Source: a virus. Taken from it: a DNA stretch of 27,038 bases. The notes under the pieces were generated by a model. It was not told the origin of the DNA. It saw nothing but the letters and a program-made list of their open reading frames with translations, and did no database searches. The stretch lies in IMG/VR virus record IMGVR_UViG_3300033155_000885, positions 1 through 27,038 of that record; one strand, 5' to 3'. The translations under genes were made by a program, and so were the position numbers. Below are positions 1 through 25,922 of this stretch, piece by piece. Numbering within the stretch: position 1 is the first letter of the stretch; every line of letters starts with the position of its first letter.

Positions 1-1155
1 CAACGATGTACTGGTATCCATCGCCATTACGAATTTCGTAATACTGTCGTCCTTCAGGAGAACTACGTCTTTCGAAAAATCCGTTAGAGTGAAGTTTAAG
101 TGATTTCCAGTCAATGATATGAATAATCTCATCATCCCTTTCCTGAACACCAATAAGCTTAAGCTTACCTTTAACACCGATAACTTCTAGCTCAGTCCAA
201 CCATAGACAGAAGCTTTGCTATCTTTAAGAGTAGCTTGTCTTCCTAGTCCATACTTAGATCCACCACCAGATTCAAGAGCTTTCATACAAGAAGATAAAT
301 GCTTGTAGCTCATGATTACATCTGTAGGTGCGCCTTTACCGATAGTTCTTGTCTCATTGTAAGCATCAAAGATACTTTCAAGTACAGTATCAGCACCCAT
401 TCCAGAACCATCATAATTGAACGCCTGAAGATGTGGGTAGTCTGCTTTTGTTACTCCGAAAAGACTAGCAGAACCAAAGTTTGCTGCAGAAAGAAGTTGA
501 TCTCTCATAGATGTAAAACCATTACCAGCAACAATTGCACCAGCAATATAAGCTTTATCACCAGCTACAACACCAGCAGCAGATAAATCTACCTGCGCAC
601 CAGACAAGTCCTTAAGGACGTTGATAGTGATTGCTTTGTCAGACATATTGATAGCTTCAACGTAACCAGAAGTTCTTGAAGTTCCGATAACACCAAATTC
701 AAGGTACTGTCCAAGTCCAAGTCTAGCTGGTCTGTCAACTACAACGATACCATTAGCTAGGTCTGTAGCTGCAGCAGTAACGTCAAGTGTAGCAATGTGT
801 GAACCATTAAGTAGGTTAATAGATACAGTTTCCTTAAATGCAGTAATAAATTCTTCAAGTTGATCAGGAAGAACTTTAATAAATGACTGCTCAAGGTCAC
901 CATGTCTCTGAAGGTCATGACAACCGTACCAAGAACATATTTGTTCTCAACGATGTCAGCTACATCAGTTAGTCCACCATACTTAATAGAAGAAGCACTT
1001 CCGCCCTTAAAAGGAACTTGAAGCTCTCCGCCTTTCCACTTTTGATCTTTCTCTGCTTTCATTAGAAAATAGTCACGCTTCATTACTTCTTCCCAAAGGA
1101 GCTTGTAAGGCATGTACTTTTTCAACATATTGTTAAAGGATGTTTTAGTTGCCAT
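1..1155 (-). CDS. Major capsid protein, frameshifted, C-terminus beyond the window
   Basis: Main shell protein of the phage head (HK97-fold type inferred). Translation starts at the ATG at 1155 after a GAGG site and is normal for about 79 residues, to LGTVV. The conserved continuation DLQRHGDLEQSFIKVLP then lies in another frame. Switching frame near 915-930 gives an open frame of about 310 codons to the left edge with no stop. It contains NLLNGSHIA, a beta-rich middle, a segment beginning AANFGSASLFG, and a C-terminal part ending in an RQYYEIRNGDGYQY motif. The unshifted frame instead runs into low-complexity leucine-rich sequence and stops at 757. The lesion equals one missing base or a -1 shift. 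I see no canonical slippery heptamer there. Position right after scaffold and portal supports the call. The family assignment comes from remembered sequence patterns plus context. Confidence 0.85.
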
Positions 1156-1166
1156 GATAATTTACC

Positions 1167-2051
1167 TCATTCAAATTGATTAGCTAACTTCTTTAAGTCT
1201 TCAATAGAATTGATAGACAACCCATTAGGAGAACCGCCTCCACCTCTGATAGATGGTAAAGTTGGTGCTGCTTGCTGGGTAGGAGCTGCCATAAAGTTAT
1301 ATTTTGTTAATACTTCGTTAAACGCTTGTTCAACTGGAATGTCGTTACCAGTTGTTTGATGAACTGCCAATCCATGGTTAACTACTTCTTGCATAAGATT
1401 TAACCCATTTGCCTTCATGACATTACCAATTGCTTGGCCTCTATCACTAGATACAAACCCTTTAAGGTTATCAACATCACGCATAGTATCTGCTTGCTCT
1501 CGCTGAGAAGAAAACTGTGTTGTAACATTGTTAAGCTTATGTTCAAGGTTATTAATCTTGCTTTCATAATCTCGCATTTGCTGGTTCTTCATCCTCTCAT
1601 CTTCAGGAAGTTGCTGCTCTTTAGCTAACCCAATGGCATGTTTCATTAACTGGTCTTCAGTTACGCCAAGGGATGTGAAAAGCTCATTCAACTTACCGTC
1701 ATCTCTGAGAGTCTTTAGATTTTGGAAACCTTTAGTTAGCTTCTCGGTGTGACCATAAAGTTTACCGTAGTTATCCTCATACTCATTAATCTTAGTTTTG
1801 TAGTGATCTACTCCACCAGACTTAGTGTACAAGTCACGAAAGTATTCTTCGTCCTCTTTAGTTTTAACAACAGTTTTCACTCTGTCATCAAACTGAAAAG
1901 CATCATCACGAACCTTATACTCAAAGTTAGGCGTGTAATCTTCTGTTACTACGTCATCGTTTGGTACATCAGCTTCATTAAGGTCGCTATCAACAGAGTC
2001 ACTTTCGGTGATTCCTGTATCAAGTTCTGTGTCCATTTCATTCTCGTCCAT
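1167..2051 (-). CDS. Scaffolding protein
   Basis: Probable internal scaffold that guides capsid assembly and is absent from the mature particle. The protein is about 294 aa with a very acidic N-terminus (Asp/Glu-rich for ~60 residues), a long Lys/Glu/Gln-rich helical middle that looks like coiled coil (roughly residues 110-210), and a C-terminal section rich in Ala/Pro/Gly ending EDLKKLANQFE. It lies between portal and major capsid genes, the usual scaffold position. The ATG at 2051 is preferred because GGAG sits six bases before it. An in-frame TTG at 2063 would overlap that ribosome site. No enzymatic motif is visible. The call rests on composition and gene order, not on a recognised signature. 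Confidence 0.8.
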   Translation of the reverse strand: MDENEMDTELDTGITESDSVDSDLNEADVPNDDVVTEDYTPNFEYKVRDDAFQFDDRVKTVVKTKEDEEYFRDLYTKSGGVDHYKTKINEYEDNYGKLYGHTEKLTKGFQNLKTLRDDGKLNELFTSLGVTEDQLMKHAIGLAKEQQLPEDERMKNQQMRDYESKINNLEHKLNNVTTQFSSQREQADTMRDVDNLKGFVSSDRGQAIGNVMKANGLNLMQEVVNHGLAVHQTTGNDIPVEQAFNEVLTKYNFMAAPTQQAAPTLPSIRGGGGSPNGLSINSIEDLKKLANQFE

Positions 2052-2066
2052 CTCAAACTCCAATTG

Positions 2067-4127
2067 TTATTGTGCTTGCGGCACAGTTAAGTTCTGCGGC
2101 CCCACTTGCGGTGGCGCAGTTAATTGTTGAGATTGATTCATTGGTGTTGCTATGTCAACCTGCGCTTGCGGCGGCAGATTCTGTAACATCTGTGCATATA
2201 CACCTTGTTCTTGTAATTTATTTACCATGAACATAACTGAATCAGATGGTATTTTTATTCGTTCAACTCTGTTATTAGCAGGGTTAAACCAAGAAGCATT
2301 AACGGTAACTAAGAATCCACCCGAAGGTATCATCCCAAAGTCTGCACGTTGCTTCTCCATAATTTGGTTTCTTATTGATGTCTGGTGCTCATTTAATCTC
2401 ATCTCATACATCTGCTGTACTTCTACTGGCATAGTTTTAAAATCAGATTTTCGCATCCTATGTATCAATGCCTTTATCATATACTCATGATTGTCATACT
2501 TATTTGCAGGAACATATTGACCTCTATCTAAAGAGAGTATATCATTCGTTGCTATGTCATCATCTGCAGTCAATGTAGAGAAGGCTTCGTCTTTATTACC
2601 AAATGGCAACTGCTTTATAACTTTACCTAGCTGATCAGGGGTTAAGCTGCTTCCTGCATACTGCAACACTTGAGTCATTGACAATACTTTCCCAAAGCGT
2701 GTCTCAACATCTCCTGAAGCAGAATCTACCTTGATTTCAAAACCCCGATCATCAAGGCGTTTAAATTCTTCGATGTTAACTGCCTCGCAAGAACCTGCAA
2801 CCTTGATAATATGATACGGCCCTAGATAATGTTTTGCTAGTTGCCTAATGATGTCGAATAGATCGGTTTCAAATCGTTCATACTTTTCTACATAACGTAC
2901 AAACTTTTTCTTATCTTTCATTGAAGCGTACAACATAAGGAACGGATCGCCCTGTGTCTGCTTGTCCTCTAATATATGTGTGAGGTTACATGCTTCATAC
3001 ATTTCTTTAATCTGTGATAGTTGGTACTCAAGATACTGGGCACCACTTCTACCTTGTAATATAGTTGGCTCTTTACCTGCTACCTGAAAAGCACGAACTC
3101 CATCAAACTTGCCACCGTTAGATAGCTTAGTTCCTTTCTGGATAAATACTTTATCATCGCCTAAAGTAATTTGATGTTCTGCCATTTTGGAAGCACTTCT
3201 ATTTACTTCAACTTGGTAAGGACGACACACCCTGATTATTCCTGAAGACCTTGGCGATGTAGACAGTTGGTCAAACCCTGCGTAAGCAATAGGCCATACA
3301 CCAAAAGGTAACTCAGTTTCCATTATAATAAAATCAGTAGTGTGAAGTATATACCAACCATTAGGGTATCTAGAACATGGTCTATAAAAGAACTCTCTGA
3401 TATATGCTTTATCTTTTACTTCACGATACTCCATAGTGTTAGTATCAAACATTTGGTAGGTCTGCTCATTTGCGCCAGGCTTAATCTTATCAACCATCTC
3501 TGGGTTAATCTTCTTAACTAGATCTTTGAAATCTTCAAAGTCAACTAGCTGTTCATGGATTCCCCATCTAACTTCTTCCCATGATCTAGCTGATGGATCA
3601 CGCTTAAATTCAAATGGAAATATCTTTTCAATAACAAACTCACCAGACTTAATTGGCATACCTTCTTCGTCTAAACCTATCTGCTGACCTTTCTCTGTAT
3701 CCCAGTAAACTTTACCGAATGCTTCACCTTGTACAATAAAATCATGAACTGCACTCTCTTGCTTAGCTTTCCACTTGTTAGTTCTCTTAACCCATTCAAA
3801 TACAGAGTTATACTGCTCACTAATTTTCACATCATGCAATTCTTTCTCATTAAATGCTGATGCAACCACAGATGGATTACCCTCAATAATTGAGTTGATA
3901 TAGATATTAGTAATTCTGTGGATGTGGTTCTTAGTTAGCCTAATCTTCTGATCTTTATTGATAGCTCCAGTTGATCTATAATTGTCTATAAACTGGTTCG
4001 ACTTCGTGTTATAATGCTCACCATTTCGTAATTTAATATTAGTACGCTGTTCAGCGAATAGCTTCTCGTCACACTGCTTGCCTTGGTCATAAAACTTTGT
4101 TAACTTTTCTATTGTAAAACTAGGCAT
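2067..4127 (-). CDS. Portal protein (P22-type)
   Basis: Forms the dodecameric ring at the capsid vertex through which DNA is packaged and ejected. The 686-aa length fits the large P22-like portal family. Typical features are the N-terminal RLTKNHIHRITNIYINSI helix with an IIEGNPSV loop (~residues 62-87), the HDFIVQGEAFGKVYWD segment (~150), an aromatic domain around residues 240-290, the PYQVEVNRSASKMAEHQ region (~300), and a Gln/Pro/Ala-rich C-terminal tail of about 40 residues that may be the barrel. The start has GGAG six bases upstream and overlaps the previous stop by 8 nt, suggesting coupled translation. It lies between terminase and scaffold genes as expected. Confidence 0.92.
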   Translation of the reverse strand: MPSFTIEKLTKFYDQGKQCDEKLFAEQRTNIKLRNGEHYNTKSNQFIDNYRSTGAINKDQKIRLTKNHIHRITNIYINSIIEGNPSVVASAFNEKELHDVKISEQYNSVFEWVKRTNKWKAKQESAVHDFIVQGEAFGKVYWDTEKGQQIGLDEEGMPIKSGEFVIEKIFPFEFKRDPSARSWEEVRWGIHEQLVDFEDFKDLVKKINPEMVDKIKPGANEQTYQMFDTNTMEYREVKDKAYIREFFYRPCSRYPNGWYILHTTDFIIMETELPFGVWPIAYAGFDQLSTSPRSSGIIRVCRPYQVEVNRSASKMAEHQITLGDDKVFIQKGTKLSNGGKFDGVRAFQVAGKEPTILQGRSGAQYLEYQLSQIKEMYEACNLTHILEDKQTQGDPFLMLYASMKDKKKFVRYVEKYERFETDLFDIIRQLAKHYLGPYHIIKVAGSCEAVNIEEFKRLDDRGFEIKVDSASGDVETRFGKVLSMTQVLQYAGSSLTPDQLGKVIKQLPFGNKDEAFSTLTADDDIATNDILSLDRGQYVPANKYDNHEYMIKALIHRMRKSDFKTMPVEVQQMYEMRLNEHQTSIRNQIMEKQRADFGMIPSGGFLVTVNASWFNPANNRVERIKIPSDSVMFMVNKLQEQGVYAQMLQNLPPQAQVDIATPMNQSQQLTAPPQVGPQNLTVPQAQ

Positions 4128-4476
4128 TTAATTCTCCATCTCGCATTACTTTCTCATACTTTATGGGGTCTGAGATCATCAAACTGTCAAGGTCAATCCC
4201 ATCTTCATCTTGCGTAGCATCATTAGTGTCGTCATCGCTAGTAACATTATCGCCCTTTTCCGTAAGGAAATCAAGGTGTGAGTCATCGAAAACTGGAACG
4301 GTATGTCCAAACGTTACCTTTATTCCAGACTCATCATATATAAAGGATGAAACCCCAGCATCTTTACATGCATCAAGTATCTCAGAGATCCCCGTACTGG
4401 TCAGACCAGAAGGTGAACTCTTCCTCGTAATGCGACTCGTTCTCTTCTTTGTCTTTTTGGTTGCTCCAGTAGTCAT
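4120..4476 (-). CDS. Small protein between terminase and portal
   Basis: Function unknown. The 118-aa reading from the ATG at 4476 has a basic Lys/Arg/Ser/Thr N-terminus (~30 residues), a short compact domain containing ISEILDACKDAGVSSF and GIKVTFGH, then an acidic Asp-rich stretch and SDPIKYEKVMRDGELNA. Small proteins with an 'xxIIxACxxxGVxxxxxxxxxIxFG' pattern often sit between terminase and portal in podovirus-like phages; this is remembered, not searched. The start overlaps the terminase end by 95 nt. An earlier in-frame ATG at 4530 would overlap by 149 nt. The conserved part begins only after the terminase stop, so the basic N-terminus may not be translated. A short downstream start without ATG is possible. 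Confidence 0.7.
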   Translation of the reverse strand: MTTGATKKTKKRTSRITRKSSPSGLTSTGISEILDACKDAGVSSFIYDESGIKVTFGHTVPVFDDSHLDFLTEKGDNVTSDDDTNDATQDEDGIDLDSLMISDPIKYEKVMRDGELNA

Positions 4477-5965
4477 TAGGCCTCGCTTGTTCTTGTGAAC
4501 CTTCAACAGGCTCTGGTTTAACTTGTTCATTACTTATGCCTTCATTGAAGACTAGCTCCCAGTCTATTGGCATTGCTAGTAAAGCATATCTTATGGTGTC
4601 AATCAAATCATCTTTAGCTACTCTCTTTGGAGTGTCTTCACGTAAGCTTTCAAATTCCCTAGCAAGCTTTTCTCCTTCACCTTCATCATCATTATATACA
4701 ACAAGCATCCCAAGTTTAAGTGCAGTGTTAAGTGCTAGTTCACCTTCATCGTGGCTCTTGTTCGCTCTTTCGAAGGAATCCCCAGCACGGGACGCAATTG
4801 TTCCAAAATCTTTAGCTGACCAGTCGTATACCTGCACCACTGGTTGCAACTTTCCTCTGGCCTTCTTATAAGCTGTGTACAAATCGCCAGCAGTTGTCTG
4901 GATGCCATCAAGCCTTCTCTTCTTGAAGACTCTAATTTTTGTAAGGCATGGAGAAAGCGAGAGGAAGGAATAAGCAGATGGATGACCACTGTCACCACCG
5001 CTACCATAATCAGCTGCCGTATAGATCGACCATCCTTTTGGGACTCCTTTGAACTCGTTACCATTCTTCCCCCTTGGGTATGGGTGTAAATTTCTTTCTC
5101 TATCGAAGCCTGGATACTTTAGCCCAGTGTCTTTCACGAACCTTCCATATATCCTACGCTGTACTTCAGCCTTTGATTTCATCTTTAATATTATTTTACC
5201 TATCCTATCTTTAGTCCATGGAGTGCTACTGCCATCAAGATACTCCAAGCAATCATACATACTGACTTGAGCTTTCCATGCATCAGGGAATATCTCATCA
5301 ATTTCATTCTGTCTTTCAATAGTCTTGTACCAGATGTCCTGACCTAATGTTGCTGTAAATGCCATTGAGAACTGACCACTAGTAGCAAACAATCTTGCCT
5401 CAAGTTCTGACAGTAACCCCTCTGGAAGTTCCTCATCACAGTCAACACCAAATACAGTTCCTGATTGCAGGTCATGTACATTTTGGTTGTATGTCTTGAA
5501 GTATATCTTATAGCCTGAGTTGAAATCTATTCGCTTAAGAACTTTATTCTGTACCTTTTCTTTCCACCCATATAAAGGATGGTTTTTAAACTCACCCCTT
5601 GGCAATATGTCAGGAACCCACTTATCCAAAAACTCTGAGAAAACTGTGTCTTGGTTTGGATATAAGTACCAACTGTATGGTACAGTATAAGGTTTAAACT
5701 TAAAAATATTAGGCCATAAAATAGGCCATAACTTTGGGTTGGTAGCAACGTCAATCCTATCCCTTATCTGGATAGTAGACTTACCAATCTGATTAGCAGC
5801 ACATATGAATCTCTTCTCATGAGTGAACTTAGCTTTACAGTATTCATCTTGCCATTTGTATTTAGGCAAACCATAAAGGTGTGGCAGTCCATCCTTAAGT
5901 CGAAGCTTTTCCTCTAGTGCTTTTGCCTTGGCTATCTTTAGTCGCAGCAGCTCGTCTTTTGACAT
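4382..5965 (-). CDS. terL: Terminase large subunit
   Basis: ATP-driven DNA packaging motor and headful or site-specific nuclease. The 527-aa protein shows a variant Walker A, CAANQIGKST (about residues 55-64), Walker B plus catalytic Glu in VFGVDCDEELPE (about 171-182), a coupling-type TATLGQD motif (~204-210), and a C-terminal RNase H-like nuclease with acidic residues in YTAADYGSGG (~D319), VQVYDWSAKD (~384) and KDDLIDTIRYALLA (~457). The N-terminal MSKDELL ... LPHLYG ... YKWQ segment is typical of this AANQI-type terminase group. An AAGG site precedes the ATG at 5965. The N-terminus overlaps the upstream small gene by 71 nt. Confidence 0.95.
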   Translation of the reverse strand: MSKDELLRLKIAKAKALEEKLRLKDGLPHLYGLPKYKWQDEYCKAKFTHEKRFICAANQIGKSTIQIRDRIDVATNPKLWPILWPNIFKFKPYTVPYSWYLYPNQDTVFSEFLDKWVPDILPRGEFKNHPLYGWKEKVQNKVLKRIDFNSGYKIYFKTYNQNVHDLQSGTVFGVDCDEELPEGLLSELEARLFATSGQFSMAFTATLGQDIWYKTIERQNEIDEIFPDAWKAQVSMYDCLEYLDGSSTPWTKDRIGKIILKMKSKAEVQRRIYGRFVKDTGLKYPGFDRERNLHPYPRGKNGNEFKGVPKGWSIYTAADYGSGGDSGHPSAYSFLSLSPCLTKIRVFKKRRLDGIQTTAGDLYTAYKKARGKLQPVVQVYDWSAKDFGTIASRAGDSFERANKSHDEGELALNTALKLGMLVVYNDDEGEGEKLAREFESLREDTPKRVAKDDLIDTIRYALLAMPIDWELVFNEGISNEQVKPEPVEGSQEQARPNDYWSNQKDKEENESHYEEEFTFWSDQYGDL

Positions 5966-21864: not shown

Positions 21865-21897
21865 AAGGACATACACTAATACACCAAGGAAGGTAAT

Positions 21898-22608
21898 ATC
21901 AATAGATCAATATTTATTATCCCTGATCTCCATTGCCCATTTGACCATCGTGATGCTCTACCATTTCTCATAGAAGTATGGAATTATTTCAAGTTAAATT
22001 CAAATACATTAGTTGTGTTCCTAGGGGATGAAATAGATGGAAATTCATGGAGCTATCACCCCACCTCACCCGATGCTGACTACACTCCAAAGCAAGAACT
22101 TAATAAAGCTATCAAACATTTACAGAAATATATGTTGATGTTTCCACACGCAACTATCCTTGAAAGCAACCATGGTTCATTAGTGTACAGGAAAGGCAAG
22201 ACTGCAATGCTACCCTCAGAAGTGTTCAAGTCCTACAATCAAATACTTGATGCACCTGATACATGGAAGTGGGTGTATGAACTTGATGTCCCACTACCTA
22301 ATGGTTCCTGTTTAAACATGCATCATGGTAGTAGAAAGAATGCATTCTCAGTAGCTAAGGACATAGGTAAGTCTCATGTGTGTGGTCATTATCATACTGC
22401 ATTTAAAGTAACACAGGAACTTGTAGCTGGGCAGATGCTGTTTGGTATGAATGCTGGCTGCTTAATTGATAGTAAGTCATATGCGTTTGAGTATGGTAAA
22501 GCATTTAAGCCTGGGGTAAAGTTAGGCTGTGGGCTAGTGCTTGATGGACATCCAATGTTAATTCCAATGCTGCTAGATGCTGATGACAGATGGACTGGCA
22601 AGCTGTAG
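21898..22608 (+). CDS. Metallophosphoesterase with non-canonical ATC start
   Basis: Second calcineurin-like phosphoesterase, about 236 aa. Family landmarks: IIPDLHCPFDH (first metal D and H), FLGDEID, ILESNHGSLVYRKGK, a histidine in MHHGSRKN, CGHYHTAF and CGLIDDKS-like AGCLIDSKSYAFEYG, matching a phage-specific subfamily. The first usual start codon (GTG at 22015) would remove the D-x-H motif, so the true start must be upstream. In frame there is no ATG/GTG/TTG after the stop at ~21876, but ATC at 21898 has AAGGA seven bases upstream. An ATA or ATT slightly downstream is also possible, or the start was lost by an error. Confidence 0.82.
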   Translation: MNRSIFIIPDLHCPFDHRDALPFLIEVWNYFKLNSNTLVVFLGDEIDGNSWSYHPTSPDADYTPKQELNKAIKHLQKYMLMFPHATILESNHGSLVYRKGKTAMLPSEVFKSYNQILDAPDTWKWVYELDVPLPNGSCLNMHHGSRKNAFSVAKDIGKSHVCGHYHTAFKVTQELVAGQMLFGMNAGCLIDSKSYAFEYGKAFKPGVKLGCGLVLDGHPMLIPMLLDADDRWTGKL

Positions 22609-23008: not shown

Positions 23009-23191
23009 TTGCTGCTTACATGGACTCATGCCAGACCCCATCTCAACTTCAATGACAGAGATACCATCATCCATTTCTTTTTGACCAATCTCACCTGTCT
23101 TCTCTTTCTCTTCAGGTAGTTCATCATAGTCTTCTATTGCTTCATTGCGAGGCTCAATTGATTCTGCCATACCTTTAAATTTACTTTTCAT
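22964..23191 (-). CDS. Acidic hypothetical protein, 75 aa
   Basis: Last gene of the right minus-strand block. Very acidic (AIEDYDELPEEKEKTGE, then KEMDDGISVIEVEMGSG) with a C-terminal helix QQSLKDFLRGILGLM. The start overlaps the end of the 913-aa gene by 11 nt, with GAGGG six bases before. The tail-to-tail overlap with the plus-strand gene and absence of a terminator mean the two transcripts collide. Function unknown. Confidence 0.6.
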   Translation of the reverse strand: MKSKFKGMAESIEPRNEAIEDYDELPEEKEKTGEIGQKEMDDGISVIEVEMGSGMSPCKQQSLKDFLRGILGLMS

Positions 23192-25922
23192 TTTTTTCCC
23201 TCGCCTTCTGCTTACGTTTACGTGCGTATTGTTGCTGCTTTGCTGATACCTTGCGTTTGTGGAATGGTGTTAGCTTTGATCCAACTTCGCCAGGACTCTT
23301 CCTTCCACTTAATAAATCATATGATGAACCAAGTAGTAAATCTATAGCAGGGGTTGGTAGTAAGTTTGACTTGAGATTAACAACTCTAGATGCGACATCA
23401 CTGTCAACATACAAGCTACCACTTGGGCGTGATTTAATATCTATGCCCGGCACAGCATCAAGTAATAATGCTTGAGAGAACACAGGCTTCTTGCCTCCAC
23501 GTATCCCACTTGCTTCAAGTGATGTACCAAGGAACAAGTCGGTGTTTGTGAATTGTTCATATATAGATTTAAGTATTGGATTAACAAGACCTAACGTCTC
23601 TTCACTTGGATCACGTACTAAAGCTATTGCATCGTTCATTGACATAGATGGCATATATGAGGCCATTAAATTACCAGCACTATCTTTGCCAGATACCCTT
23701 GGATTAAATTTTAATAACCATTCTGGTATGCCTTCTCTCTCTTCAACTGTTGGAGTCCTGCCCATGTTGTTGACAATCTTATACATCTTGGCAACCTTCT
23801 CTGTATTAGTGAAGATTTCATTTGACCAGAACTTCATGTTGCGTGAGAAGAACGACCAGTACGGGAAGATACGTTTCAATACTTTCTGTTCAAATGCAGA
23901 CACATCCTTGTAATCAAAGAACGTATCATTAACCATATCTTTAGATTTAGTTAGTATACCTTTCACCTCAGGGCTTATCCTTGAAGCTTCAAGTAATCCA
24001 ACCTTATCTACTACCTTTTTTGCAGCTTTATTATTTTGCAATCCTTGTTTATAGAATTGTCTAAACGATAGTACCCTAGCAGTTCCTTCAGAAGCAGCAC
24101 CCCAATTACCAACTGTTGACCACATGTGATCTTGGAATCCATCGATCGCTTTTCCTATTCCAGTTCGTGCTTCAAGTTGCATAGCTATTTTATCAGCTTC
24201 TTTTCTACCTTTCTTGGCTATAAGTAGTGCCATGTTTTCTCTTGCCATATCTTTAATGTCATCAAAGAATGATGAGCCAACAACTCCAACATCAGATGCT
24301 ACCTGTAGCTCCTCTGTATTGAATCGTACTTTTCTTGGGCCTGTCTTTGGGTTGAATGCTTTTAACATTTCATTGTAAACAGAATCAGATTCTTTAGATA
24401 TCAAATGCCTTGCTGGTGCAGTCTTCCCTAGCATGCCAACAGTATCCTTAAACCCATGCTTAAGATATGCCTTCATACTATTGTCTACATAGTTGTTTGC
24501 TAACCACTTGTATGTAAACGTAAGGTGCATTGTTTTCAGGAACCCCGTGAACCTATCGTACTTCTTAAGCCCAAGCTCTAATAGTTTAGCGTTATCTGTT
24601 ACTGCTTCAATATCAGGTATCTTTAATACTCTCTGTGCTGCCCTAACATGTTTACCTGCAAATGCGTTTGCATATCTCTGAGCTTCTATAGCACTACGAT
24701 CTGCCAAACTAAGACCAGCGTCACTAATGCTAACCTTACCTCTCTTTTGGAAACCAGTCCTCAATGGAGAAGCAAGAAATTCTAATGGACTTTTAAAATC
24801 ATCAGGGGTTGCTACATCTGCGATATGGAAATCAAGTGGCTCTATCATTTGCGATGGATTTTTTAATTGCTTGTTCCATTTGCCAATCATTTTTCTGTTA
24901 TGAGATGCATAGTCTTTTACTGCTTTTGTTAAGTTAGGATTACCTATCCTTGCAAGGTCATCTGTCACACCTTTCCATGCTTTGCTGTTAGATTGCTTTG
25001 TTATATACCTAAGCAACTCCTCATTTGAGTCAGCTCCCCATGCACCTTTTTTAATGTTTGCCTTATTGATCATGTTTAAAAAGTTACGGTGTTCTATTGT
25101 TGACTCTGCTCCCTTTGTTATAACTTTGTCTAGCACACCAAGCATCTCTGGTGATTTAGCAGTTAGCTCATCAAGTATATTTTGCCTACCACCAAGGAAC
25201 TCGGAATGTAGTGGTCGCATTTCATTTGTAAATTTTCTTGTTAGTTCTGTAGCCTCACCAACAGTTGGTATTTCCACACCTGCGTCAGCTAATGGTTTTT
25301 TTATTGCAGCATAAGCTTCAGGTCTAGTAGTCTTATAATATTTATCAACTAGCCCATCACCTGCCTTGCTAATAATTGACCCTGCTTTTGTTATTAATGG
25401 AGATACAGCAGCACCTATACCTGCACCTACTGCAATGTTACCTATAACATCTAAAGCATCATCTTCTGGCATAGTTGATAATGCACCTATAGTTGCACCA
25501 GTTGCTCCTCTTGCTATAGCAGAACTTGCAGCCTCAGGCAGCTTGCTTAATATTTTTGATCCTTTAACCATTGTATATAATGGAGCTGCTAAATAAGTTA
25601 ATGGATCTGTAGCTATGTCAAATGCTAGATCAACCGCATAGCCAGGCACACCGTCAATAGTTTTACCTGTTAATTTTTGGAGTGTATCATGGGCAGTTAA
25701 TTCTTTCTCACCCTTCATTATCTTAGAGAACTCATCTAGGTTAAGGTCGCCATCAATAGTTTGCATGATAGCTTCTCTACCCATAGCTCCAGTCTTTGAG
25801 AATGCAGAGCCTAGTCTTTCAAGGAAGCTTCTATCTATATCTTCAGGAGCTACACTCCCACCACCTTGGCGTTGCTGTGAAGCAAGTATAATATCAAGGA
25901 ACTCATCTGAATCTTTTGACAT
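23181..25922 (-). CDS. Large putative internal virion / DNA-ejection protein, 913 aa
   Basis: Long protein with N-terminal DEFLDIILASQQ, a DIATDPLTYLAAPLY motif (~105-120), then Gly/Ala-rich hydrophobic segments (GATGATIGALS, NIAVGAGIGAAVSPLI, ~135-175) suited to membrane insertion, and a long helical body. A KRIFPYWSFFSRNMKFW motif (about 682-698) matches the FPFYxxxRxNxPL-type motif seen in large internal proteins of podovirus-like phages. The last ~30 residues are strongly basic. These are hallmarks of proteins ejected with DNA. Function is inferred from pattern and position near the late genes. GGATTGGG precedes the ATG. Confidence 0.75.
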   Translation of the reverse strand: MSKDSDEFLDIILASQQRQGGGSVAPEDIDRSFLERLGSAFSKTGAMGREAIMQTIDGDLNLDEFSKIMKGEKELTAHDTLQKLTGKTIDGVPGYAVDLAFDIATDPLTYLAAPLYTMVKGSKILSKLPEAASSAIARGATGATIGALSTMPEDDALDVIGNIAVGAGIGAAVSPLITKAGSIISKAGDGLVDKYYKTTRPEAYAAIKKPLADAGVEIPTVGEATELTRKFTNEMRPLHSEFLGGRQNILDELTAKSPEMLGVLDKVITKGAESTIEHRNFLNMINKANIKKGAWGADSNEELLRYITKQSNSKAWKGVTDDLARIGNPNLTKAVKDYASHNRKMIGKWNKQLKNPSQMIEPLDFHIADVATPDDFKSPLEFLASPLRTGFQKRGKVSISDAGLSLADRSAIEAQRYANAFAGKHVRAAQRVLKIPDIEAVTDNAKLLELGLKKYDRFTGFLKTMHLTFTYKWLANNYVDNSMKAYLKHGFKDTVGMLGKTAPARHLISKESDSVYNEMLKAFNPKTGPRKVRFNTEELQVASDVGVVGSSFFDDIKDMARENMALLIAKKGRKEADKIAMQLEARTGIGKAIDGFQDHMWSTVGNWGAASEGTARVLSFRQFYKQGLQNNKAAKKVVDKVGLLEASRISPEVKGILTKSKDMVNDTFFDYKDVSAFEQKVLKRIFPYWSFFSRNMKFWSNEIFTNTEKVAKMYKIVNNMGRTPTVEEREGIPEWLLKFNPRVSGKDSAGNLMASYMPSMSMNDAIALVRDPSEETLGLVNPILKSIYEQFTNTDLFLGTSLEASGIRGGKKPVFSQALLLDAVPGIDIKSRPSGSLYVDSDVASRVVNLKSNLLPTPAIDLLLGSSYDLLSGRKSPGEVGSKLTPFHKRKVSAKQQQYARKRKQKAREKNEK

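Follow-up and report, generated by a model that had tools for sequence, protein, structure and literature searches.

Organization of the capsid locus

The window analysed here is the whole 27,038-nt stretch of the IMG/VR virus record IMGVR_UViG_3300033155_000885, and at one of its ends the minus strand carries, in this order, genes for a probable large terminase, a portal protein, a scaffold-like protein and the major capsid protein (MCP), an order shared with tailed phages whose MCPs have the HK97 fold. The first three genes are intact. The portal gene (2067..4127) is recognized by its match to PHROG 156 (portal, E 2.8e-12), whereas the others are placed by position: the gene between portal and MCP (1167..2063) is termed scaffold-like on that basis only, and the terminase candidate (4382..5965) is named from its position and a Walker A-like motif, AANQIGKS. 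Portal and terminase genes are collinear with those of relatives, and the terminase candidate, which had no Pfam or PHROG match (E 0.001), is 58-62% identical to its homologues in three related records, G001, G003 and G004. The homologue in G003 (also L018; IMGVR_UViG_3300005264_000007, 1806-4205) is an 800-aa frame in which about 250 aa are inserted at the Walker A motif, between GK and S and with HN before the S, and from its sequence this insert looks like an intein.

The MCP gene starts at 1155 on the minus strand and is read for 78 codons, after which the native sequence, from 920 up to the end of the contig, lies in a different frame. Its 5' part (921..1155; MATKTSF...VLGTV) comprises these 78 codons and the first base of codon 79, and its 3' part (2..920; HDLQRHGDLEQSF...QYIV), which is cut by the contig end, shares 56.9-60.5% amino-acid identity with G001, G003 and G004. 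The open reading frame that begins at 1155 ends at 757 and encodes 132 aa, namely 78 native residues and a tail of 54 out-of-frame residues (757..920) before a stop codon. The frame that contains the HGDLEQSF motif has no stop codon between about 946 and position 2, where the contig ends, and it overlaps the first by about 190 nt (946-757). An earlier note on this DNA had rightly placed the two halves of the gene in different frames.

Two other genes of the window deserve mention. A phosphoesterase-like gene (21880-22608) aligns with a relative from a point upstream of its first ATG, GTG or TTG (22015). Since no standard start codon follows AAGGAAGG in the vicinity of 21899, translation may begin at a rare codon (ATC or ATA), or the sequence may contain an error. 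A 913-aa protein (23181-25922, minus strand), with relatives of 937-1062 aa that are 23-34% identical in G001, G003 and G004, is possibly a large internal virion protein. Among the conserved genes of the window that were compared with these three records, only the MCP gene shows a change of frame.

A near-identical record with an intact gene

A scan of IMG/VR yielded a second contig, 3300033141_002967 (4813 bp; here L002), that is nearly identical to the window over 4156 nt. Window positions 4156-921 differ from it by one mismatch in 3236 nt (99.97% identity) and positions 920-1 by two mismatches in 920 nt (99.8%), and the 40 nt that separate these two matching blocks in L002 (3237-3276) are missing from the window at 920..921. 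One 40-nt gap and three substitutions are therefore the sole differences between the two records. In L002 the MCP gene is a single intact frame of 422 aa; the segment absent from the window begins at the second position of codon 79 and ends at that of codon 92, and its absence shifts the frame by -1. The earlier note was thus correct that the gene is split, and its range of about 915-930 includes the junction, but the exact site is 920/921 and what is gone is 40 nt, not the single base that had been proposed. Nor does fusing the two frames restore a coherent capsid protein, as had been expected, since the joined product would still be without about 14 conserved residues (GSYKEIWGSMMFND). Relocation of the segment within the window was rejected, as a 25-nt piece of it has no other match there with up to 3 mismatches allowed.

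The remaining differences are unevenly placed. The upstream 3236 nt contain just one, a synonymous substitution at 1884 in the scaffold-like gene, while the other two (sense T to G at 138 and C to G at 128) lie less than 140 nt from the contig end and cause the changes M353R and D356E. Both positions are conserved: M353 is identical in the five sequences compared, and D356 in all four that reach that position. Counting the gap, the terminal 920 nt of the contig account for three of the four differences between the records, two of which alter conserved residues. Neither flank of the junction was found in any other IMG/VR record, and searches with the helicase and the 913-aa protein recovered no further near-identical contigs.

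Fold and identity of the capsid protein

By sequence the MCP has no PHROG (E <= 0.001), Pfam or notable PDB match, and its identification was therefore based on the fold, tested on the intact L002 copy. An AlphaFold2 model of the L002 protein, built with 35 sequences (pLDDT 85.5, pTM 0.84), matched a phage capsid in Foldseek with E 1.2e-10, and both Foldseek and VIA-align placed it among HK97-fold capsids and encapsulins, with Z values of about 15-18 for solved structures of such proteins (VIA-align: 18.4 for 7f38_I, 17.1 for 6j3q_a and 15.9 for HK97 2gp1_A). The model agrees with an HK97 fold of spine helix, E-loop, P-domain and A-domain, and the product of the intact gene is accordingly predicted to have this fold, in line with the earlier naming of this gene as the major capsid gene. 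The predicted fold, with a hairpin preceding the spine helix, resembles the MCPs of the cyanophages A-1(L) and Mic1 and of HK97, although sequence identity to these structures is only about 6-14%. In the model, strands 72-78 and 82-91 form this hairpin ahead of the long spine helix (101-129), and by likeness to HK97 the hairpin would be the E-loop. The 40-nt loss takes out mainly its second strand.

Relatives of the capsid protein

A tblastn search of 50,697 phage records matched neither the MCP nor the terminase, yet dozens of MCP relatives occur in IMG/VR despite the lack of PHROG, Pfam and phage-record matches; judged by these searches, the window belongs to a phage group that they do not recognize. 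Further IMG/VR scans provided relatives at 33-66% identity to L002 for the aligned set. A comparison with related capsids had been proposed in the earlier note as a check: residues 76-96, which include the lost block, are ungapped in all 35 aligned sequences (L002 and its relatives), and within the block E83, G86 and F90 are invariant. The region is read through in one frame at 41 of 42 IMG/VR loci, some of which run into a contig edge beyond it, and at the remaining locus (L058) the MCP gene is interrupted by a removable insert. No relative carrying the 40-nt deletion was seen, although one of the search patterns lay within the lost block, which biased the search toward relatives that keep it. 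The collection of bacterial and archaeal genomes yielded no MCP relatives.

Origin of the 40-nt loss

We consider it likely that the loss is a fault of this one record with no functional frameshift behind it, and that the phage population carries an intact gene. This reading is favoured because L002 is near-identical and has an intact 422-aa frame, because the block is present in each of the 35 aligned sequences, and because neither flank recurs in other IMG/VR records. The MCP gene would have lost 40 nt (parts of codons 79-92) in a single record, with a frame change of -1, through a faulty read, a faulty library molecule or a faulty assembly join, in a part of the sequence close to the contig end that would have little read support. 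The clustering of differences near that end, which amounts to three differences only, would favour weak read support.

The case resembles the indel errors of single metagenomic contigs, in that a gene broken in one record is intact in a near-identical one. It differs in that the loss is neither an indel of 1 nt nor a collapsed repeat, but one of 40 nt at a blunt junction. No matching base is present on either side of the junction, and no exact repeat of at least 9 nt occurs within 3151-3400 of L002; with neither flanking repeat nor microhomology, collapse of a repeat by the assembler is unlikely. The lack of microhomology counts against the simple assembly-collapse form of the record-error explanation, and the blunt join must then come from some molecule, read or gap-closing step. 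Deletion driven by a hairpin was rejected, as the 121-nt region folds as DNA no better than shuffled sequences (z -0.10). A search of the literature on assembly errors returned nothing specific.

The alternative that the deletion is a true allele, by which some of the phage genomes in the sample are defective after losing the 40 nt, being complemented or packaged as dead genomes, appears unlikely to us, if distinctly less so than those that follow. A blunt junction without microhomology is unlike the product of repeat collapse, and relaxed selection would likewise account for the two changes of conserved residues. Against this, the deletion is known from a single record, and a phage without MCP cannot spread alone. 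Moreover, the absence of MCP relatives from the bacterial and archaeal collection, and of a phage integrase from the four records inspected, lends no support to long survival as a decaying prophage.

The interrupted gene of L058 invites another explanation. In this record (IMGVR_UViG_3300049846_002157) the MCP gene is interrupted after codon 75 by 197 nt (2726-2922), removal of which restores a full-length MCP. A U precedes the 5' site and a G ends the insert; the terminal GTGCGT of the exon can form P1 with GCGCAC in the insert; and helices traced by eye are arranged as in a group I core (P3 TTTCCTC/GAGGAAA, P7 GACTG/CAGTC, P8 CCTA/TAGG, P9 CTCTGG/CCAGAG). On inspection the insert is probably a group I intron, although no Rfam family matched the 197 nt. 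Group I introns are known from the capsid genes of mycobacteriophage LittleE and lactococcal phage Tuc2009 (PMC3706429). L058 is like these in having an interrupted capsid gene, with the U before the 5' site and the terminal G, near the breakpoint of the window, whereas the window itself has no insertion and has instead lost exon sequence. As the L058 insertion point aligns 10 nt upstream of that breakpoint, one may imagine, on a very weak suggestion, that an intron endonuclease cut the conserved site of an intron-less MCP gene and that template-free end joining, compatible with the blunt junction, lost the 40 nt. We regard this as very improbable: the L058 intron is too small to encode an endonuclease, no endonuclease for this site was identified, and the deletion occurs only once. 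If true, it would mean that phages of this group without the intron bear scars at capsid sites that such introns target.

A programmed -1 frameshift joining the two frames, which the earlier note had raised while favouring an error, has only their overlap to recommend it and can be given almost no credence: the overlap (946-757) holds no X XXY YYZ heptamer, as that note had observed, the single one in the scanned reading frame, at 1097, being out of phase and not within the overlap; relatives have one open MCP frame; the near-identical L002 gene needs no shift, which contradicts recoding for this population; and the shifted product would still omit about 14 residues of a block ungapped in all 35 sequences. 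Since mainly the second strand of the hairpin is removed, a ribosomal shift joining the frames would not give a normal subunit. The preference for an error over recoding is thus borne out.

Implications

The split gene is either a record error, which is most likely, or a dead allele of an ordinary, essential capsid gene. The split is not recoding, and no 132-aa capsid protein should be annotated from the window record. Beyond this, the relatives delineate a set of phage capsids of predicted HK97 fold that was missed by the PHROG, Pfam and phage-record sequence searches used here, and one of its members, L058, probably has an intron in its capsid gene.
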